Shown here one piece after another: positions 26,893 to 33,407 of a DNA stretch of 64,000 nucleotides (the first letter of the stretch is position 1; each line of letters begins with the position of its first letter). The stretch lies in the NCBI GenBank assembly GCA_016744855.1, contig JADGDO010000007.1, positions 1 through 64,000 of the forward strand, in the 5' to 3' direction. The stretch comes from Candidatus Fermentibacteraceae bacterium. Its GTDB lineage: Bacteria; Fermentibacterota; Fermentibacteria; Fermentibacterales; JCC-6. The position numbers and the translations under genes are program-made. Below the pieces are notes generated by a model. It was not told where the DNA came from, made no database searches, and saw only the letters and a program-made list of their open reading frames with translations.

Positions 26893-28773
26893 TCACACAA
26901 GAAGTCTGCTTTCACCTTCTCTCTTCGTAATTTTTCTTGAATCCAGAAGCTCGGCCCAGAGCAGAGTGAACTTTCGCGATACCCCAAGTGCTTCTCTCAA
27001 CTCTCCCAGACGGAATGGATTTGCTCCGAAACTATCCTCAATAATTTTCTGAACACTCTGGATCATATCTTCTGAGGAAATCAAACTGTCGGAAAGACTG
27101 AAAAGAAGACCCCTTTGAAGAAGTGCATCAATATCCTCTTCCCTTCTTCCTGAAACTGGTCTTTTGACTCCCTGGAGGCCTGCTTTCTTGACATCTGATA
27201 TGATGTGATTTGCAAGGGTCTGGGTCTCCCCTGATATTTCTTTCGGGAAGGTGCCAAGGCAGAGGTAATCTCCACGTTTCTCTACAGCTCCACTTTCCTG
27301 CAGTCTTGAAAGACAGAATCTAACAGTCCATACAGGAGTGTCGGGTGGCAGTTTCCTTGCTAGGTGGGCAGCGGGAAGACCAGGGTTAAGGGGTACACTG
27401 CGATGTATTGTTCCTATGCAGCCCATAATTTTTCTTTCCAGGTTTTCAACTGCCACTTTGAGTATAAGTCGCCTTGTTTTTCCCTCACCGAAAGACAGAG
27501 CTCTCTCCTGTTCAATCAGAGATGCTGAGGCCACATCAAAATCTACCGGTTCAGAACCTGACTTCTTAATGAAATCATCCACTTCGATAAAATGACCCGG
27601 ATTGTCTTCCATTGTTTCAAAGAGAAGATCCTCCAGATCTCCGTGTGTAAGAAGATCAAGGTGCGAAAGTCTTGCATCTCTGAAACGCGACCTAACCTTC
27701 TGGGTACCTGTATCAAGAATAATACCACCCCCTATTGTAACAACAGGGGAATACCTTCTAATAACAAATCTGTCTCCGGGCATAGCAACTACCGGATGCT
27801 CAAGCTGGAAATGAACGTATCCGGTTTCCCCTCGGAGGAGTGGCTTCCCTTCAACAGGAATTGCACGAGCCATAACCTCGGCTGTACCTACATGAAATCT
27901 TACTCTCTGCCTAACAAGAAGATCAACATTTCGCTGGAGTATTGTACAAGTAGTGTCGAGGCTCTTGAGTACCTTAAGAAATCCAATCTCACCTGCTACA
28001 CTGCCACGGTGAACATCTTCCTTGCGAATACCTGTGAGATTCAGAGCGATTCTGTCTCCAGCTTCTCCTGTTGCAGCGTTTCTGTGCTCATTGACCCCGA
28101 GTTCTCTAACACGGAATGTCTTTCCAACAGGTTGAATCTCCACAGATTCTCCAGATTTAATCTTTCCGGAAAGACCTGTTCCACAAACAATTGTGCCGAA
28201 TCCCTTCAATGTAAAAATTCTATCAACAGGCATCCTGAATCGCCCCATTGAACTCTTGGTATCTATGGATGCCGCCATTTTCAAGAGGGCTTCTTTTAAC
28301 TCGTCCATTCCTGTTCCGGTTTTTGCAGAAACTCTAAAAATAGGAGCTTTTTCTGCGGGAGTTCCAGCTAAAGCTTCTCTGACTTCCTCTTCTGCAAGTT
28401 CAATCAGATCGTCATCAACAAGATCACATTTGGAGAGAGCGACAATCCCTGTATCCACTTCAAGAAGTCTCAGAATATCGAGGTGCTCCCTGGTCTGTGG
28501 CATAACTCCCTCATCTGCAGAGACAACCAGCAGGAAACTATCAACGGTGGAAACTCCAGCGACCATTGTTTTAACAAATTTTTCATGTCCTGGTACATCG
28601 ATAAAGGAAACGGTACTTCCGTCATGGTTTTCAAGAAATACATAACCGAGTTCAATGGTAATCCCGCGAGCTTTCTCCTCTTTCAGTCTGTCCGGGTCCT
28701 TACCGGTGAGAGCGAGCATCAAACTGCTTTTTCCGTGATCAATATGCCCTGCAGTACCGATGATTACTCCCAT
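26893..28773 (-). CDS. selB: Selenocysteine-specific elongation factor SelB
   Basis: This 626-aa translation factor delivers Sec-tRNA to UGA codons by binding the SECIS hairpin. The EF-Tu-like G domain has GTAGHIDHGKSSLM (P loop), ARGITIELGYVFL, DVPGHEKFVKTM and SKCD. Domains II and III follow (VDRIFTLKGFGTIVCGTGLSG), then a winged-helix C-terminal region of about 270 residues that binds RNA (ending LGVSRKFTLLWAELLDSRK). Its start overlaps the selA stop by 10 bp, so selA and selB are cotranscribed. Confidence 0.97.
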   Translation of the reverse strand: MGVIIGTAGHIDHGKSSLMLALTGKDPDRLKEEKARGITIELGYVFLENHDGSTVSFIDVPGHEKFVKTMVAGVSTVDSFLLVVSADEGVMPQTREHLDILRLLEVDTGIVALSKCDLVDDDLIELAEEEVREALAGTPAEKAPIFRVSAKTGTGMDELKEALLKMAASIDTKSSMGRFRMPVDRIFTLKGFGTIVCGTGLSGKIKSGESVEIQPVGKTFRVRELGVNEHRNAATGEAGDRIALNLTGIRKEDVHRGSVAGEIGFLKVLKSLDTTCTILQRNVDLLVRQRVRFHVGTAEVMARAIPVEGKPLLRGETGYVHFQLEHPVVAMPGDRFVIRRYSPVVTIGGGIILDTGTQKVRSRFRDARLSHLDLLTHGDLEDLLFETMEDNPGHFIEVDDFIKKSGSEPVDFDVASASLIEQERALSFGEGKTRRLILKVAVENLERKIMGCIGTIHRSVPLNPGLPAAHLARKLPPDTPVWTVRFCLSRLQESGAVEKRGDYLCLGTFPKEISGETQTLANHIISDVKKAGLQGVKRPVSGRREEDIDALLQRGLLFSLSDSLISSEDMIQSVQKIIEDSFGANPFRLGELREALGVSRKFTLLWAELLDSRKITKREGESRLLV

Positions 28774-30146
28774 AATTCAGCTAGCCTCTTCTCAAGCAGT
28801 AGAGCAAGTTCGCCATCTTCCGTTTCTTTAACCGCTCTGAGATCAAATTTGACCCCCGCATCTTCCAGCCTTGCAGCAACCGCAGGGCTTGAAAGCCGGA
28901 GTTTTTTTAGCAGTAACTCAGGGTCTGGACAGTGGAGAGAAACACCGGCGGAAGGAATTGAATAATCGGGCAAACTGCCACTTCCGACAAAACTGCTCAT
29001 CTCTTCAGCTCTGATGGAACAATTTGAAGGTAGTTTTAGATTCTTTATAAAGGCTTCTGACCTCTCCATTAGCTCTTCAGGTTTGCGAGAGAATGAGTGA
29101 TACACAGGATGATTCAAAGCAATGTACTCGTCGCTCTCAAGAAATATTCTTAAAGAAGCCTCAATCGCGGCAATAGTGAGTTTTCCCACCCTGAGAGCCC
29201 TTGCAAGAGGATGCTTCTTGATTTTATCAAGGTACTTCTTTTTCCCAAGAATAAGACCAGCCTGGGGGCCACCGATCAGCTTGTCGCCGGAGCAAGTTAA
29301 TACATCAGCACCAGCTTCAATGCTATCAACAATAGTCGGCTCAGCTGGAATTCCAAACCGGTCAAGAGGAACAAGGCTACCTGCACCGAGATCGTCAATT
29401 ACAGGAATATCGTGCTTTTTGCCTAGCTCAATCAGTTCCTCCAGGGGTACTTCACTTGTGAAACCTTTAATTAGGTAGTTTGAAGGGTGAACCCTGAGAA
29501 TAGCAGCCGTTCTCTCTGTGATTGCATTCTCATAGTCTCTAAGATGAGTTCTGTTGGTGCAACCCACTTCAACCATGATGCAGCCACTCTGCTTCATAAC
29601 ATCAGGTATCCGGAAGGCCCCGCCTATCTCCACCAGCTGCCCCCTGGAAACAATTACCTCTTTCCCTGCTGCCATAGCAGAAAGAACAAGAAGAGTTGCT
29701 CCTGCATTGTTGTTGGCAAGCGTAGCCGATTCTGCACCGGTCAGCTCGGTAACCAGCTGTTCAATATGCTCATCGCGGTTACCTCTTTTACCGGTTTCTC
29801 TGTTCCACTGAAGAACAGAGTATCCAGCGGCAACTCGGCTGACAGCTTCAACAGCTGCCGGAGGAAGGCTAGCACGGCCGATAGCGGTGTGGAGTACGAT
29901 GCCAGTGGCATTAATTACCCTCTCCATAGCCGGTCTTCTCTGAAATTCCCCAAGTTGCATACATTTCTGAATTATGGCATCTGAATCAGGCAGCTCGCCT
30001 CCTTCAATTACGCATTCTCTGGCCCAGAGAATTCCTTTTCTAACAGCATCTTTAATCTCGGATGGTGTCGAATCCGGCAACTTCTTTTTTACTTCCGGCA
30101 AAATTTCATGAACCGCAGGTAGGTTTCTAAGTGACTCCATGCCCAT
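28764..30146 (-). CDS. selA: L-seryl-tRNA(Sec) selenium transferase
   Basis: PLP enzyme of about 460 aa that converts Ser-tRNA(Sec) to Sec-tRNA(Sec) with selenophosphate. The N-terminal SelA domain (LRNLPAVHEILPEV), the segment RVINATGIVLHTAIGRA and the PLP-lysine motif SGDKLIGGPQAGLI are clear. I place the start at the ATG at 30146, preceded by GGAG at 5 bp; the frame stays open to a TTG at 30230 without a good ribosome-binding site. It diverges from selD and is followed by selB. Confidence 0.96.
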   Translation of the reverse strand: MGMESLRNLPAVHEILPEVKKKLPDSTPSEIKDAVRKGILWARECVIEGGELPDSDAIIQKCMQLGEFQRRPAMERVINATGIVLHTAIGRASLPPAAVEAVSRVAAGYSVLQWNRETGKRGNRDEHIEQLVTELTGAESATLANNNAGATLLVLSAMAAGKEVIVSRGQLVEIGGAFRIPDVMKQSGCIMVEVGCTNRTHLRDYENAITERTAAILRVHPSNYLIKGFTSEVPLEELIELGKKHDIPVIDDLGAGSLVPLDRFGIPAEPTIVDSIEAGADVLTCSGDKLIGGPQAGLILGKKKYLDKIKKHPLARALRVGKLTIAAIEASLRIFLESDEYIALNHPVYHSFSRKPEELMERSEAFIKNLKLPSNCSIRAEEMSSFVGSGSLPDYSIPSAGVSLHCPDPELLLKKLRLSSPAVAARLEDAGVKFDLRAVKETEDGELALLLEKRLAELWE

Positions 30147-30267
30147 TTTGTCTCCAAATCTATTTTGCTTATTCTGTGTTATTAAAATTTCCCAACATTG
30201 AAGAATAGAAGGAACAGCGACAGAGGGCAAGGGTTCAATTATATTAGAGCAACCTCAGGAGATTTTC

Positions 30268-30387
30268 ATGAAACATCTGAATCTACATAATACTATCGGT
30301 GCAACGCACTTTTCCGGAATTGAACGGGAGAGAAAACCTATCCTTATTAATGCGCTGATTTTTGCTGTTCAAAATGGCATCTCATAA
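30268..30387 (+). CDS. Small ORF in the selA-selD intergenic region
   Basis: A 39-codon frame starts with ATG behind a very good AGGAG (6-bp spacing), the best ribosome-binding site upstream of selD. The product (MKHLNLHNTIGATHFSGIER at its start) has no recognisable domain. Its stop TAA (30385-30387) lies 52 bp before the TTG I choose for selD, in another frame. It may be a leader peptide or a small protein, or chance. Confidence 0.4.
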   Translation: MKHLNLHNTIGATHFSGIERERKPILINALIFAVQNGIS

Positions 30388-30439
30388 TTCATTTCCAGAC
30401 CAGATAACCGGCCATGCGCCAGACAAAGAGAGGAATCAC

Positions 30440-31621
30440 TTGAAGACTACCTGTCCATGTCCCAGCACTTCATGTAGAAGGCACGGTAACTGCGCAGAAT
30501 GCATTGAATTTCATCGCAGGACAAATTCTGCCACGTACTGCGAGAAAATAAAGGGGCCTGAAGTTGCAATCTCGTCGGATGTAAATCTGATGGACTATGC
30601 AGCATGCGCAGGTTGAGCAGGCAAAATGGCTCCCGGCAGGTTGTCGGGAATACTTAGCAAGCTTCCAAACGTACCCAGTTCCAATCTAATAGTTGGAATG
30701 GATACCATGGACGATGCCGGCGTATTCAGAATAAACGATACCACAGCTCTTGTTCAAACCGTAGATTTCTTCTCCCCTGTGGTGGGTAACCCGAGACTTT
30801 TCGGCAGGATAGCTGCTGCTAACTCCATGTCTGACATCTGGGCTATGGGAGGAACTGCTCTTACTGCGATGAATCTTCTTTGCTTCCCTGGTGGTAAGCT
30901 TGAAGTTGAGGTAATAGAGCAAATTCTGATCGGTTCCAGCGAAAAACTTGTGGAAGCAGGGGTTGTTCTTGTCGGTGGTCATACAGCAGAGCAGGATGAA
31001 GTCTTGTTCGGTCTCAGTGTTACAGGAACCATTCACCCCGATAAAGCGAAGACAAACTCCAGGGCGCGGGTAGGTGATACTCTTATTCTTACAAAACCAC
31101 TGGGCTCGGGAATACTGGCTACTGCAAACAAAGCGAATCCGCTCCCATCAGCAATCATGGGACCAGTCACCGCGGCAATGGAAAGACTGAATATGTATGC
31201 CTGTGATGTTCTTAATGATTATGACGTGAGTGCAATGACAGATATAACCGGATTCGGTCTTCTCGGGCATTCTCTTGCTTTTGCCAAATCAGGAAATGTT
31301 GGAATGGTATTCAACGCAGAGGACATTCCTCTGTTCAAAGGTGTAATGGACTACGTTGAGGATTACTTCCCCGGTGGTTCCGCTCAAAATCAAAAATATG
31401 TAGGGGAAAATGCATACATAGATCCTGAGGTCGGTGAGAATATGGGCGACATACTATGTGATGCCCAGACATCCGGAGGTCTTCTTGCGGCAGTCCGATC
31501 TGACCAGGCAGAAGAAGCTGTTAAGGCGATTCGTGAAAGCGGCGATGAGAATGCCGCAATTATCGGTCGAATTGTTGAAAACCCGGGGGCTGGCAAACCG
31601 AGATTGATTGTCTTTCCCTAA
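30440..31621 (+). CDS. selD: Selenophosphate synthetase SelD, itself a selenoprotein, with N-terminal Cys-rich domain
   Basis: The frame is crossed by one in-frame TGA (30614-30616) that falls at the catalytic position. ACAGU-AGK gives U-x-x-K, matching the Cys17 and Lys20 spacing of E. coli SelD; Sec there is known in other bacteria. After it comes the whole AIRS-type synthetase (GMDTMDDAGVF, TVDFFSPVVGNPRLFGRIAA, VGGHTAEQDEVLFGLSVTG). Before it is a Cys-rich stretch (CPCPSTSC, HGNCAEC, YC, residues 5-34) with no stop between. The TTG at 30440 has GAGAGG at 6 bp; an in-frame ATG at 30374 lacks one, and an internal ATG at 30590 could make SelD alone. Automatic callers would start at 30626 and lose the active site. 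Confidence 0.9.
30632..30648 (+). promoter_or_regulatory. SECIS element of selD
   Basis: The hairpin CCCGGCA-GGT-TGTCGGG (7 bp with one G-U pair, loop GGT) begins 15 nt after the TGA, with the loop 22-24 nt after it. Spacing and a G/U-containing loop fit the bacterial SECIS rule; SelB would bind it. Confidence 0.75.
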
Positions 31622-31668: not shown

Positions 31669-32280
31669 TTACATTCCCAGTGTAGCCTTTATAGATCCGA
31701 AAGTGGCCGGTTCTAAAGAAAGCGTTCCGTTAAATCTAAGAAGAAGGCTTTCCGGAGACTGGGTGCCGATAGGATTGTCATACTCGCCATTGACTGATCT
31801 ATCGACATCACTGTCCGACCAACCCATCACATAAATAGCACTCTCTCCACTAGGCCAGGCGAAATCAACTAGTAGATTATCAGATCCATTGTACCAGAAT
31901 GAATCTTCCAGTTCAATGGTCATCCACTCCCCAGGCCCTGGTGAGTACAACCACACGTCACTCTGGTTAAAAACCCGGGTTTTTGTGCCTGATATGTAGT
32001 TGTCATCAAATTCCGGTTCAAGCTCGTCGAGGCTGCTGTGTCCAAGATAAATCTGAAATTCCTCCAGAAAAACCTTCTCACCGCTGACTACCTTGAATGA
32101 GATTGATTCAATTTCGATTGCAGATCCCATTTCCTCTGAATAAGCTACCAACTGGTAGCGTAAGCTGAGGTATCAAGAACCACAAAATGGCCTTGCACTC
32201 GGCATCTGTTCGGTGCCGAATTCGATGAACGTGCCGAAGCATATTCCGGCGATGAGCAGCAAAATTACCATTGCGCGCAT
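31669..32280 (-). CDS. Secreted beta-rich protein with in-frame UGA (candidate selenoprotein, CGSU motif)
   Basis: ATG at 32280 (GAAAGGGGTGAAAGA upstream) starts a signal peptide (MRAMVILLLIAGICFGTF). The frame then reads PFCGS, TGA (32173-32175, codon 36), YLSLRYQLVAYSEEMGSAIE and on to a stop at 31669, for 203 residues in all. The mature part (EFQIYLGHSSLDEL, FDDNYISGTKTRVF, GEWMTIELEDSF, NLLVDFAWPSGESA) looks like a secreted beta-sandwich protein. A hairpin of SECIS type follows the TGA. It is the last gene after yedF and DUF3343 and converges on selD. Sec insertion would make a CxxU redox motif; a plain nonsense mutation is the alternative. Downstream of the TGA there is only a TTG start (32151) without a clear ribosome-binding site. 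Confidence 0.6.
32149..32172 (-). promoter_or_regulatory. Putative SECIS in the secreted-protein gene
   Basis: After the in-frame TGA the minus strand contains GCTACC-AGTT-GGTAGC, a perfect 6-bp stem. Its loop starts 20 nt after the TGA and carries GT at positions 24-25 counted from the U of UGA. The E. coli fdhF element has GU at 23-24. Confidence 0.55.
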
Positions 32281-32370: not shown

Positions 32371-32598
32371 CTACAAGATATCCCTTCTGTATATTTTGGA
32401 TATCGTTGATTTTAACTCCCTCAAGATTGCCTCAACCGTATACTCCTCATCTGTTATCGTTCGAAGACAAACACCGCATTCAGAGGAAAATTCTCTCGGT
32501 ATTGGAACAACCTTGCACCTCATTCCAGTTTTCTCCAGCCTTCTTGCAACGAGCATTACAGCGCTGGCGGAGTGAAAAAGTCTGTAGGTATAGCTCAT
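32371..32598 (-). CDS. DUF3343 protein (putative Se/S carrier-like)
   Basis: 75-aa protein with the DUF3343 pattern: RLFHSASAVMLVARRLEKTG, then CKVVPIPREFSSECGVCLRT. Two conserved Cys lie in the SxxCGxC segment and one in the RCKVVPIPR segment. The family is linked by context to selenium metabolism and YedF; its chemistry is not established. The ATG overlaps the yedF stop as ATGA, so the two are coupled. A second copy lies at 42769-43026 beside a cysteine desulfurase. Confidence 0.85.
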   Translation of the reverse strand: MSYTYRLFHSASAVMLVARRLEKTGMRCKVVPIPREFSSECGVCLRTITDEEYTVEAILRELKSTISKIYRRDIL

Positions 32599-33167
32599 AT
32601 TGCATAGTGCTTCACGGCAGTACCAAGTTCTCTAGCTATTTCATACATGTTGGAAATTGTGCCTGCAGAATGCTTATCAGTGATTTCGAAATGTTTCAGG
32701 CAAGTGCCGCATACCAGAAGAGTAAGACCCTTCTTCTCCAGGATTTTCAGATCCTCCAGAACGGGTGAATCATCGGTTGTGAGAAAGACTCCACGGTCGT
32801 AAAAAACAAGAGTATCAGGAACTGCCTCATCCATCTCGGTAAGTGTATGAAAGTACATTCGGCAGAGCACGTCCTCAAGCTCTCTGTCTCCACCGGTGCC
32901 GAAACGGTCTCCCGGTACAGATACAACGAGCTTCTCTGAGGATGTAGTTTGGGGTACTGCAAGACTCGGTACCACTTCAACAGATTCATACCCGTCATGG
33001 CTGATTATTTTGCTGCTGGCACCGGCTCTTTTTACAGCACGCTGAATGTTTTCCGGCTGCCCGGACCCATCACAAAGTATTCTGAAAGGTGTACCTGATT
33101 TACAGGCTTCTTTTGCAACAAGTACAGGATGAGGGCAGGGTTTTCCCCTGACATCGATTTCTTTCAT
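32595..33167 (-). CDS. yedF: Selenium metabolism protein YedF
   Basis: 190 aa. The N-terminal TusA/SirA-like domain has the CPxP motif (DVRGKPCPHPVLVAKEA). The C-terminal DsrE-like domain has the Cys pattern LLVCGTCLKHFEI and the FYDRGVFL segment. This two-domain form is the YedF family whose occurrence follows selD; it is thought to carry reactive selenium or sulfur as persulfide. I chose the ATG at 33167 behind GGAGG at 8 bp. It leads the yedF-DUF3343-secreted protein unit. Confidence 0.92.
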   Translation of the reverse strand: MKEIDVRGKPCPHPVLVAKEACKSGTPFRILCDGSGQPENIQRAVKRAGASSKIISHDGYESVEVVPSLAVPQTTSSEKLVVSVPGDRFGTGGDRELEDVLCRMYFHTLTEMDEAVPDTLVFYDRGVFLTTDDSPVLEDLKILEKKGLTLLVCGTCLKHFEITDKHSAGTISNMYEIARELGTAVKHYAI

Positions 33168-33181
33168 GTAATCCGCCTCCA

Positions 33182-33202
33182 AAGCTAAGTTTTCGTTAGC
33201 TT
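33182..33202 (-). promoter_or_regulatory. Hairpin adjoining the yedF ribosome-binding site
   Basis: Perfect 7-bp inverted repeat AAGCTAA/TTAGCTT with a 7-nt loop, ending directly against the GGAGG of yedF. There is no T tract, so it is unlikely to be a terminator. It may modulate initiation. Confidence 0.45.
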
Positions 33203-33241
33203 CCCGGCAGGTACATCTTCAGTGTGAAATAGAATAAACTC

Positions 33242-33349
33242 TTATAAGCAGAGTGAAAACAACCCGACGGGATGCGCAAACTCGAACACAGACCTGTGCC
33301 CGAAATCATTCACTCATGTACGTTTGAATAAACCACATGGATTTAGCAT
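33242..33349 (-). CDS. yedF leader ORF with internal UGA
   Basis: ATG at 33349 follows AGGAGG at 5 bp, a strong initiation site. Eleven codons (MLNPCGLFKRT) lead to TGA at 33314-33316; reading through gives 23 more codons to TAA at 33242-33244. The TGA is followed by a hairpin nearly identical in loop and spacing to the E. coli fdhF SECIS. The peptide resembles nothing I know, so a leader that senses Sec-decoding capacity is more likely than a functional protein. It lies 75 nt upstream of the yedF start on the same strand. Confidence 0.5.
33281..33304 (-). promoter_or_regulatory. SECIS-like hairpin in the yedF leader
   Basis: The stem TTCGGGCAC/GTGTTCGAG (9 pairs, three of them G-U) closes the loop AGGTCT, the same six bases as the apical loop of the E. 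coli fdhF SECIS. The loop begins 22 nt from the U of the leader UGA (21 in fdhF). E. coli also has a SelB-binding SECIS-like element in the selAB leader, so a regulatory role is plausible. Confidence 0.65.
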
Positions 33350-33377
33350 ACCCGCCTCCTTTCTTCAATGAATCAAT

Positions 33378-33407
33378 ACTATACTAATAGAAAGTAGGTA
33401 AACACAA
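33378..33407 (-). promoter_or_regulatory. Promoter of the yedF unit
   Basis: TTGTGT (33402-33407) and TATAGT (33378-33383) are separated by 18 bp. The leader ORF starts about 29 bp downstream. The rest of 33408-33550 is AT-rich with no gene seen. Confidence 0.5.

Follow-up and report, generated by a model that had tools for sequence, protein, structure and literature searches.

Why should a short reading frame in front of a selenium gene carry an in-frame UGA, and is that UGA a stop codon or a selenocysteine (Sec) codon? The question arises in a 64,000-nt stretch of DNA (hereafter the window) from a Candidatus Sabulitectum-like genus of the Fermentibacteraceae (Fermentibacterota), whose members are uncultured anaerobic bacteria. 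The initial annotation of this locus proposed that the ORF preceding yedF is a Sec-sensing attenuator. Here, we confirm that the UGA-containing leader ORF with its SECIS-type hairpin is real. Based on comparison with related genomes, we lean towards its being a Sec-decoding leader ORF that would report SelB/Sec-tRNA capacity to the yedF operon.

The elements first described for this ORF, an AGGAGG followed by an ATG and 11 codons up to a TGA, after which the frame stays open for 23 codons to a TAA, are all present on the minus strand (Table 1). Short selenocysteine ORFs escape standard gene callers. The promoter suggested together with the ORF stands in part: its -10 hexamer aligns with those of three relatives, whereas its -35 hexamer is a poor match and the TTGTGT/TATAGT pair before the leader ORF was not listed by a promoter consensus scan.

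Table 1. Features of the leader, of the yedF ribosome-binding site (RBS) and of the neighbouring selenium genes, in window coordinates; helices are as predicted.
Feature	Position	Strand	Remarks
-35-like hexamer TTGTGT	33402..33407	-	weak, 3/6 to consensus; relatives TTGTTT, 17-nt spacer
-10-like hexamer TATAGT	33378..33383	-	aligned with TATAGT/TATAAT in G002, G012 and G006
Shine-Dalgarno (SD) AGGAGG of leader ORF	33355..33360	-	AAAGGAG in relatives
Leader ORF	33242..33349	-	11 codons, UGA, 23 codons, TAA; same length in five genomes
Leader ORF product if UGA is Sec	33242..33349	-	35 residues, MLNPCGLFKRT-U-VNDFGHRSVFEFAHPVGLFSLCL, stop TAA
Leader ORF ATG	33347-33349	-	
In-frame UGA	33314..33316	-	codon 12 of leader ORF; invariant in five genomes
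Hairpin UUAUUCA/UGAGUGA	33310..33331	-	UGA in 3' arm; 7 pairs, all five genomes
SECIS-type hairpin	33281..33304	-	9 pairs, loop AGGUCU (33290-33295); inner 7 pairs present in 97% of cells
Invariant element GCAUCCCGUCGGG	33263..33275	-	codons 25-29; complementary to leader RBS/start GGGAUGC, partly to yedF RBS
Conserved CACUCU	33250..33255	-	codons 32-34; predicted partner of leader SD in relatives
Leader ORF stop TAA	33242-33244	-	about 75 nt before yedF start
5' arm CUGCC of helix masking yedF RBS	33206..33210	-	
Inner hairpin AAGCUAA/UUAGCUU	33182..33202	-	between the arms of the yedF-RBS helix
3' arm GGCGG of yedF-RBS helix	33173..33177	-	overlaps yedF SD GGAGG (33176-33180)
yedF	32595..33167	-	TIGR03527 above cut-off; TusA and DsrE domains
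DUF3343 / Se_S_carrier (PF11823)	32371..32598	-	start overlaps yedF stop
selD	30362..31621	+	selenoprotein; UGA 30614-30616 (CAG-U-AGK)
selA	28764..30155	-	shares an operon with the leader in G002 and G006
selB	26893..28773	-	

Does this UGA carry the signal for Sec insertion? The stem that follows it, UUCGGGCAC/GUGUUCGAG, has nine pairs and closes on the loop AGGUCU, the first base of which lies 18 nt after the UGA. In Escherichia coli fdhF, folded here for comparison, this distance is 17 nt, and the hairpin is therefore as originally described, with an fdhF-identical loop placed one base further from the UGA. In bacterial Sec insertion sites the UGA is followed by a hairpin whose small apical loop contains G (PMC1088965), and the 17-base E. 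coli SECIS core, ggttgcaggtctgcacc, has been printed with the same AGGUCU loop (PMC3834832). The leader has such a loop at an fdhF-like spacing, behind a UGA that lies in frame within a translated ORF. Rfam models run on the window and the leader region gave no bacterial SECIS or leader family, with only tmRNA and tRNAs above gathering score.

How often would such an arrangement occur by accident? Both strands of the 64 kb were scanned for a UGA followed, after 13-24 nt, by a stem of at least 6 pairs, three of them G-C, whose loop starts with AGG. The matches were the Sec codon of selD (30614), the leader site (matched also from a second, overlapping UGA at 33312) and a further site lacking a start codon; only the leader site and the Sec-containing selD had in addition an SD, a start and 15 or more open codons. 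In simulated sequence of the same dinucleotide make-up, the raw pattern turned up 1.15 times per 64 kb, a figure that fell to 0.05 once the SD, the start and the open frame of at least 15 codons were demanded as well.

The cell can decode a UGA/SECIS site of this kind, since its genome holds the complete set of selA, selB, selD and a tRNA-Sec gene (the last on contig C9). A genuine Sec codon of this genome, that of selD, moreover uses an AGGU-type loop; its hairpin (CUCCCGGC-AGGUU-GUCGGGA) places the loop 21 nt downstream of the UGA. This SelD carries a Cys-rich N-terminal extension, and the same Sec site occurs in two relatives (G003 and G001).

The gene behind the leader is yedF, as the initial annotation held, by a match to its NCBIfam model. 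YedF and DUF3343 were treated as selenium genes in a comparative study, in the available portion of which no leader is reported (PMC5322559). The order is leader-yedF-DUF3343-selA-selB, all in one direction, in G006 and G002, and leader-yedF-DUF3343 followed by a YedE-like membrane protein in G012. In the window and in G003, DUF3343 is followed by a conserved ORF of no known family, and selA-selB are found past selD, which runs in the opposite direction. Next to the yedF cluster, the window, G003, G012 and G020 share a conserved 160-aa ORF (31669..32151, minus strand, in the window) that matches nothing in Pfam or NCBIfam. In relatives that lack yedF, the region upstream of selA-selB is a different one, and no leader-like element was seen before selA. 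Where selA does not stand behind a yedF leader, a conserved TTCTATTCTTCATAGTT-like element lies about 45-60 nt before its start (L050, L051, L052, L053, L054, L049, L046) and may be a promoter or regulator site.

Is the leader kept in relatives? We found yedF in four further genomes of the genus (G006, G012, G002, G003), and all four have the leader. In 5/5 yedF-bearing genomes of the genus, a small sample in which G003 is joined across a contig break, the leader occupies one and the same position, and its length, UGA, 18-nt spacing, hairpin and stop position agree throughout. The loop is AGGUCU in four genomes and AGGCCU in G012. With the UGA taken as Sec, the peptides of the relatives read MTVSRILFKRT-U-VADSGHRSVSGYLHPVGLSPLSV (G006), MPYTRVLFKRT-U-VIDSGHRPVPEFMHPVGLSPLSV (G012), MPIPRILFKRT-U-VVDSGHRSVSEYLHPVGLSPLSV (G002) and MPIPSVLFKRT-U-VIDSGHRSVSEYSHPVGLSPLSV (G003, joined by inference across the break through a 7-nt overlap). 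The G003 leader is split within codons 13-15, between contigs C227 and C99 (L047, L046), with GTGATTG at the two ends. Loss of stem, loop and UGA in relatives, which the initial annotation had named as evidence against its proposal, did not occur: ATG, UGA, stem and loop are kept in all five.

Searches with a peptide profile and a covariance model found the leader absent from the eight genus members without yedF and from the rest of the family and phylum. A weak peptide-profile match in G001, at a contig end, has neither yedF nor the leader layout beside it and was rejected. Because SelB-like matches occur in every genome of the family (30/36 above cut-off), the leader goes with yedF and not with Sec use as such. 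Further afield, the pattern KRTUxxDxGHR matched 13 times in 84,980 species genomes, and the three true matches are all among the leaders already described; the other ten, lacking both HPVG and the leader layout, were discarded. Before 21 yedF genes of another phylum, no similar UGA/SECIS leader was found.

What is being conserved, the peptide or the RNA? The yardstick is yedF itself, whose synonymous sites are near saturation, with 1/38 four-fold sites having a conserved residue being invariant. Against this background, codons 7-11 (LFKRT) of the leader vary only synonymously (pooled pS 0.67, pN 0), which argues for translation of the stretch ahead of the UGA and for a role of its residues; protein-level conservation before the UGA has p = 0.01-0.04 without the window sequence. 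Beyond the UGA, none of the 12 positions of codons 26-29 (CAT CCC GTC GGG), Pro27-Val28-Gly29 included, varies among the five genomes, and this element is kept as RNA, since every base is fixed where yedF fixes so few. The SECIS core is likewise invariant at 14/15 positions, and codons 22-25 and the spacer behind the leader ORF are free to vary.

No clear coding signature was found after the UGA, the variable columns being spread 7/8/8 over the codon positions and a column-shuffle test giving p = 0.25 (0.06 without the window). Searches for a Cys-containing homologue family of the leader peptide and for a Pfam match found none. In each of the five genomes the frame after the UGA runs on uninterrupted to a conserved stop (TAA or TAG); about 20% of column shuffles are likewise free of stops. 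The region behind the UGA thus looks mostly held as RNA, and the open frame and conserved stop fit read-through, without proving it.

The predicted helices follow the same pattern of conservation. The hairpin that holds the UGA is paired in 100% of alignment cells, with one pair changed on both sides, and the SECIS hairpin in 97%. The helix over the yedF RBS (CCCGUC/GGCGGG) is present in all five genomes and paired in 97% of cells; its one two-sided change is in G003, where both arms are altered (CCCGCU/AGCGGG). The strongest energies are those of this helix in G012 and in G003 (z about -4), and domain energies overall are modestly below those of shuffles. In the RNAalifold consensus, the leader RBS/start GGGAUGC pairs with GCAUCCC of codons 25-27, a pairing extended in relatives by GAGAG/CUCUC. 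The full helix set is paired in 96% of cells, compared with 39-51% when slid by 1-3 columns. The covariation looked for in the stems is slight, however, with 2 two-sided changes in the set, a number matched by 33/500 shuffles, and what supports the modelled structure is structural consistency, not strong covariation.

Could the position of a ribosome on the leader control yedF? As in leader-peptide attenuators, a short ORF with an SD stands directly before the operon and holds the codon of the pathway, and an RBS-masking structure lies downstream, here the helix over the yedF RBS in five genomes. We folded the leader under the constraint of a ribosome at initiation, at the UGA, at codon 28 or at the final stop, a thermodynamic model only. 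The yedF RBS was about equally masked whatever the ribosome position in 4/5 genomes, and ribosome position did not switch between exclusive structures in these four. Some structural exchange at the yedF RBS appeared in G002 only; pairing with GCAUCCCGUC was considered as the means of switching by ribosome position and was set aside, having been seen in that genome alone. No intrinsic terminator was found in the leader on its strand, where the sole strong U-tailed hairpin nearby lies just downstream of rnfB. The proposal of a Sec-sensing attenuator is thus borne out in its setting, namely a conserved leader, full Sec machinery, linkage to yedF (and to selA-selB in two genomes) and a helix over the yedF RBS, but not in its switch, given the absence of a useful change at that RBS in 4/5 genomes and of a terminator. 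Because folding shows no ribosome-position release of the yedF RBS, the simple attenuator step is unproven.

In light of these results, how might the leader act? A ribosome would start at the leader ATG and reach the UGA at codon 12. With SelB-GTP and Sec-tRNA on the AGGUCU hairpin, Sec would be inserted and 23 more codons translated to the TAA, and the read-through ribosome would open the invariant GCAUCCCGUCGGG and the CACUCU, which would otherwise be paired back onto the leader's own RBS. When Sec-tRNA is short, the ribosome would end at the UGA and both elements would stay folded. This outcome, in whichever direction it works, would set the translation of yedF or the survival of the mRNA (together with DUF3343, selA and selB in two relatives), with the yedF RBS itself held in its separate conserved helix. 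Because only a read-through ribosome reaches the elements of codons 25-34, Sec-dependent re-loading of the leader would be the most economical reading, and it would act via mRNA survival, Rho exposure or coupling to yedF. We put at about even the chance that the leader UGA is decoded as Sec and serves as a sensor of Sec-tRNA/SelB supply for the selenium operon, the Sec analogue of amino-acid attenuators. If so, yedF would be under selenium-responsive control and the leader would be a compact natural reporter of UGA recoding.

A rather unlikely alternative is a SelB operator that involves no recoding, in which the UGA would simply end a leader peptide of 11 residues and SelB, together with Sec-tRNA, would bind the hairpin as feedback. 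The constraint after the UGA, which acts on the RNA and not on the peptide, suits this alternative, as do the inclusion of selA-selB in the operon of two genomes and the precedent of E. coli selAB. A pure operator needs no in-register UGA, however, and here both the UGA and the Sec-competent 18-nt spacing are invariant; that the frame past the UGA is open to a conserved stop in five genomes counts against it weakly, in view of the stop-free shuffles noted above. Less likely again is that the leader encodes a functional 35-residue selenoprotein (e.g. a redox or selenium-carrying peptide) that is merely co-transcribed with yedF. One conserved ORF length, conserved LFKRT, D15, GHR and HPVGL residues, and a Sec in a redox-relevant operon would agree with such a peptide, but it matches nothing in Pfam, has no relatives outside the genus in the exact-pattern scan of the 84,980 species genomes, and diverges in the last residues of the window copy (GLFSLCL vs GLSPLSV), while the stretches in which its codons do not vary speak for constraint on the RNA. 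The last alternative is that the resemblance arose by chance or that the ORF is a decayed remnant of a selenoprotein; the shortness of the ORF and the weak covariation might speak for it, but it is for practical purposes excluded, because the leader is conserved across five species in which yedF synonymous sites are nearly saturated, at a chance expectation of 0.05 full sites per 64 kb.

How does a Sec-decoding leader before yedF compare with known systems? Within the open-access literature, we found no selenocysteine leader peptides, UGA leader ORFs or SECIS elements before yedF. To our knowledge, the one bacterial case described of control by selenocysteine decoding is the SECIS-like leader of E. 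coli selAB, which is untranslated. Judged by its sequence, the element described here appears to belong to leader-ORF or SECIS-based control elements, with an apparently real Sec codon. Attenuators are known for many amino acids, and a leader in which UGA decoding itself is put to the test would reveal how cells gauge their Sec-tRNA supply.

With a bacterial Sec insertion site such as that of E. coli fdhF, the leader shares the UGA, a near-equal distance to the loop (18 vs 17 nt) and the identical AGGUCU loop; it differs in having an ORF of just 35 codons, for which a search for homologues with Cys found none. In E. coli selAB, the SECIS-like element in the leader, reportedly the subject of work by Thanbichler and Bock in 2002, is reported to bind SelB and Sec-tRNA as a feedback signal. 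The two systems have in common a SECIS-type hairpin in the leader of selenium genes, with SelB as the presumed reader. In G002 and G006 the leader operon includes selA-selB, with yedF and DUF3343 in between; in the window and G003, selA-selB stand beyond other genes. The two systems differ in that the hairpin here follows an in-frame UGA in a translated ORF with its own SD, and in that the first gene is yedF. The leader-peptide attenuators of trp, his and ilv and the translational attenuators of the ermC type likewise have a short SD-bearing ORF before the operon, a codon of the controlled pathway and a masked downstream RBS, but the codon here is UGA/Sec, and neither exclusive structures nor a terminator are demonstrated. 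Finally, prfB (release factor 2) is autoregulated by frameshifting at an in-frame UGA inside its own gene. Both systems would use an in-frame UGA as a gauge of its decoding factor, by frameshifting in the gene itself in prfB and, as we propose, by Sec insertion in a separate leader before yedF.
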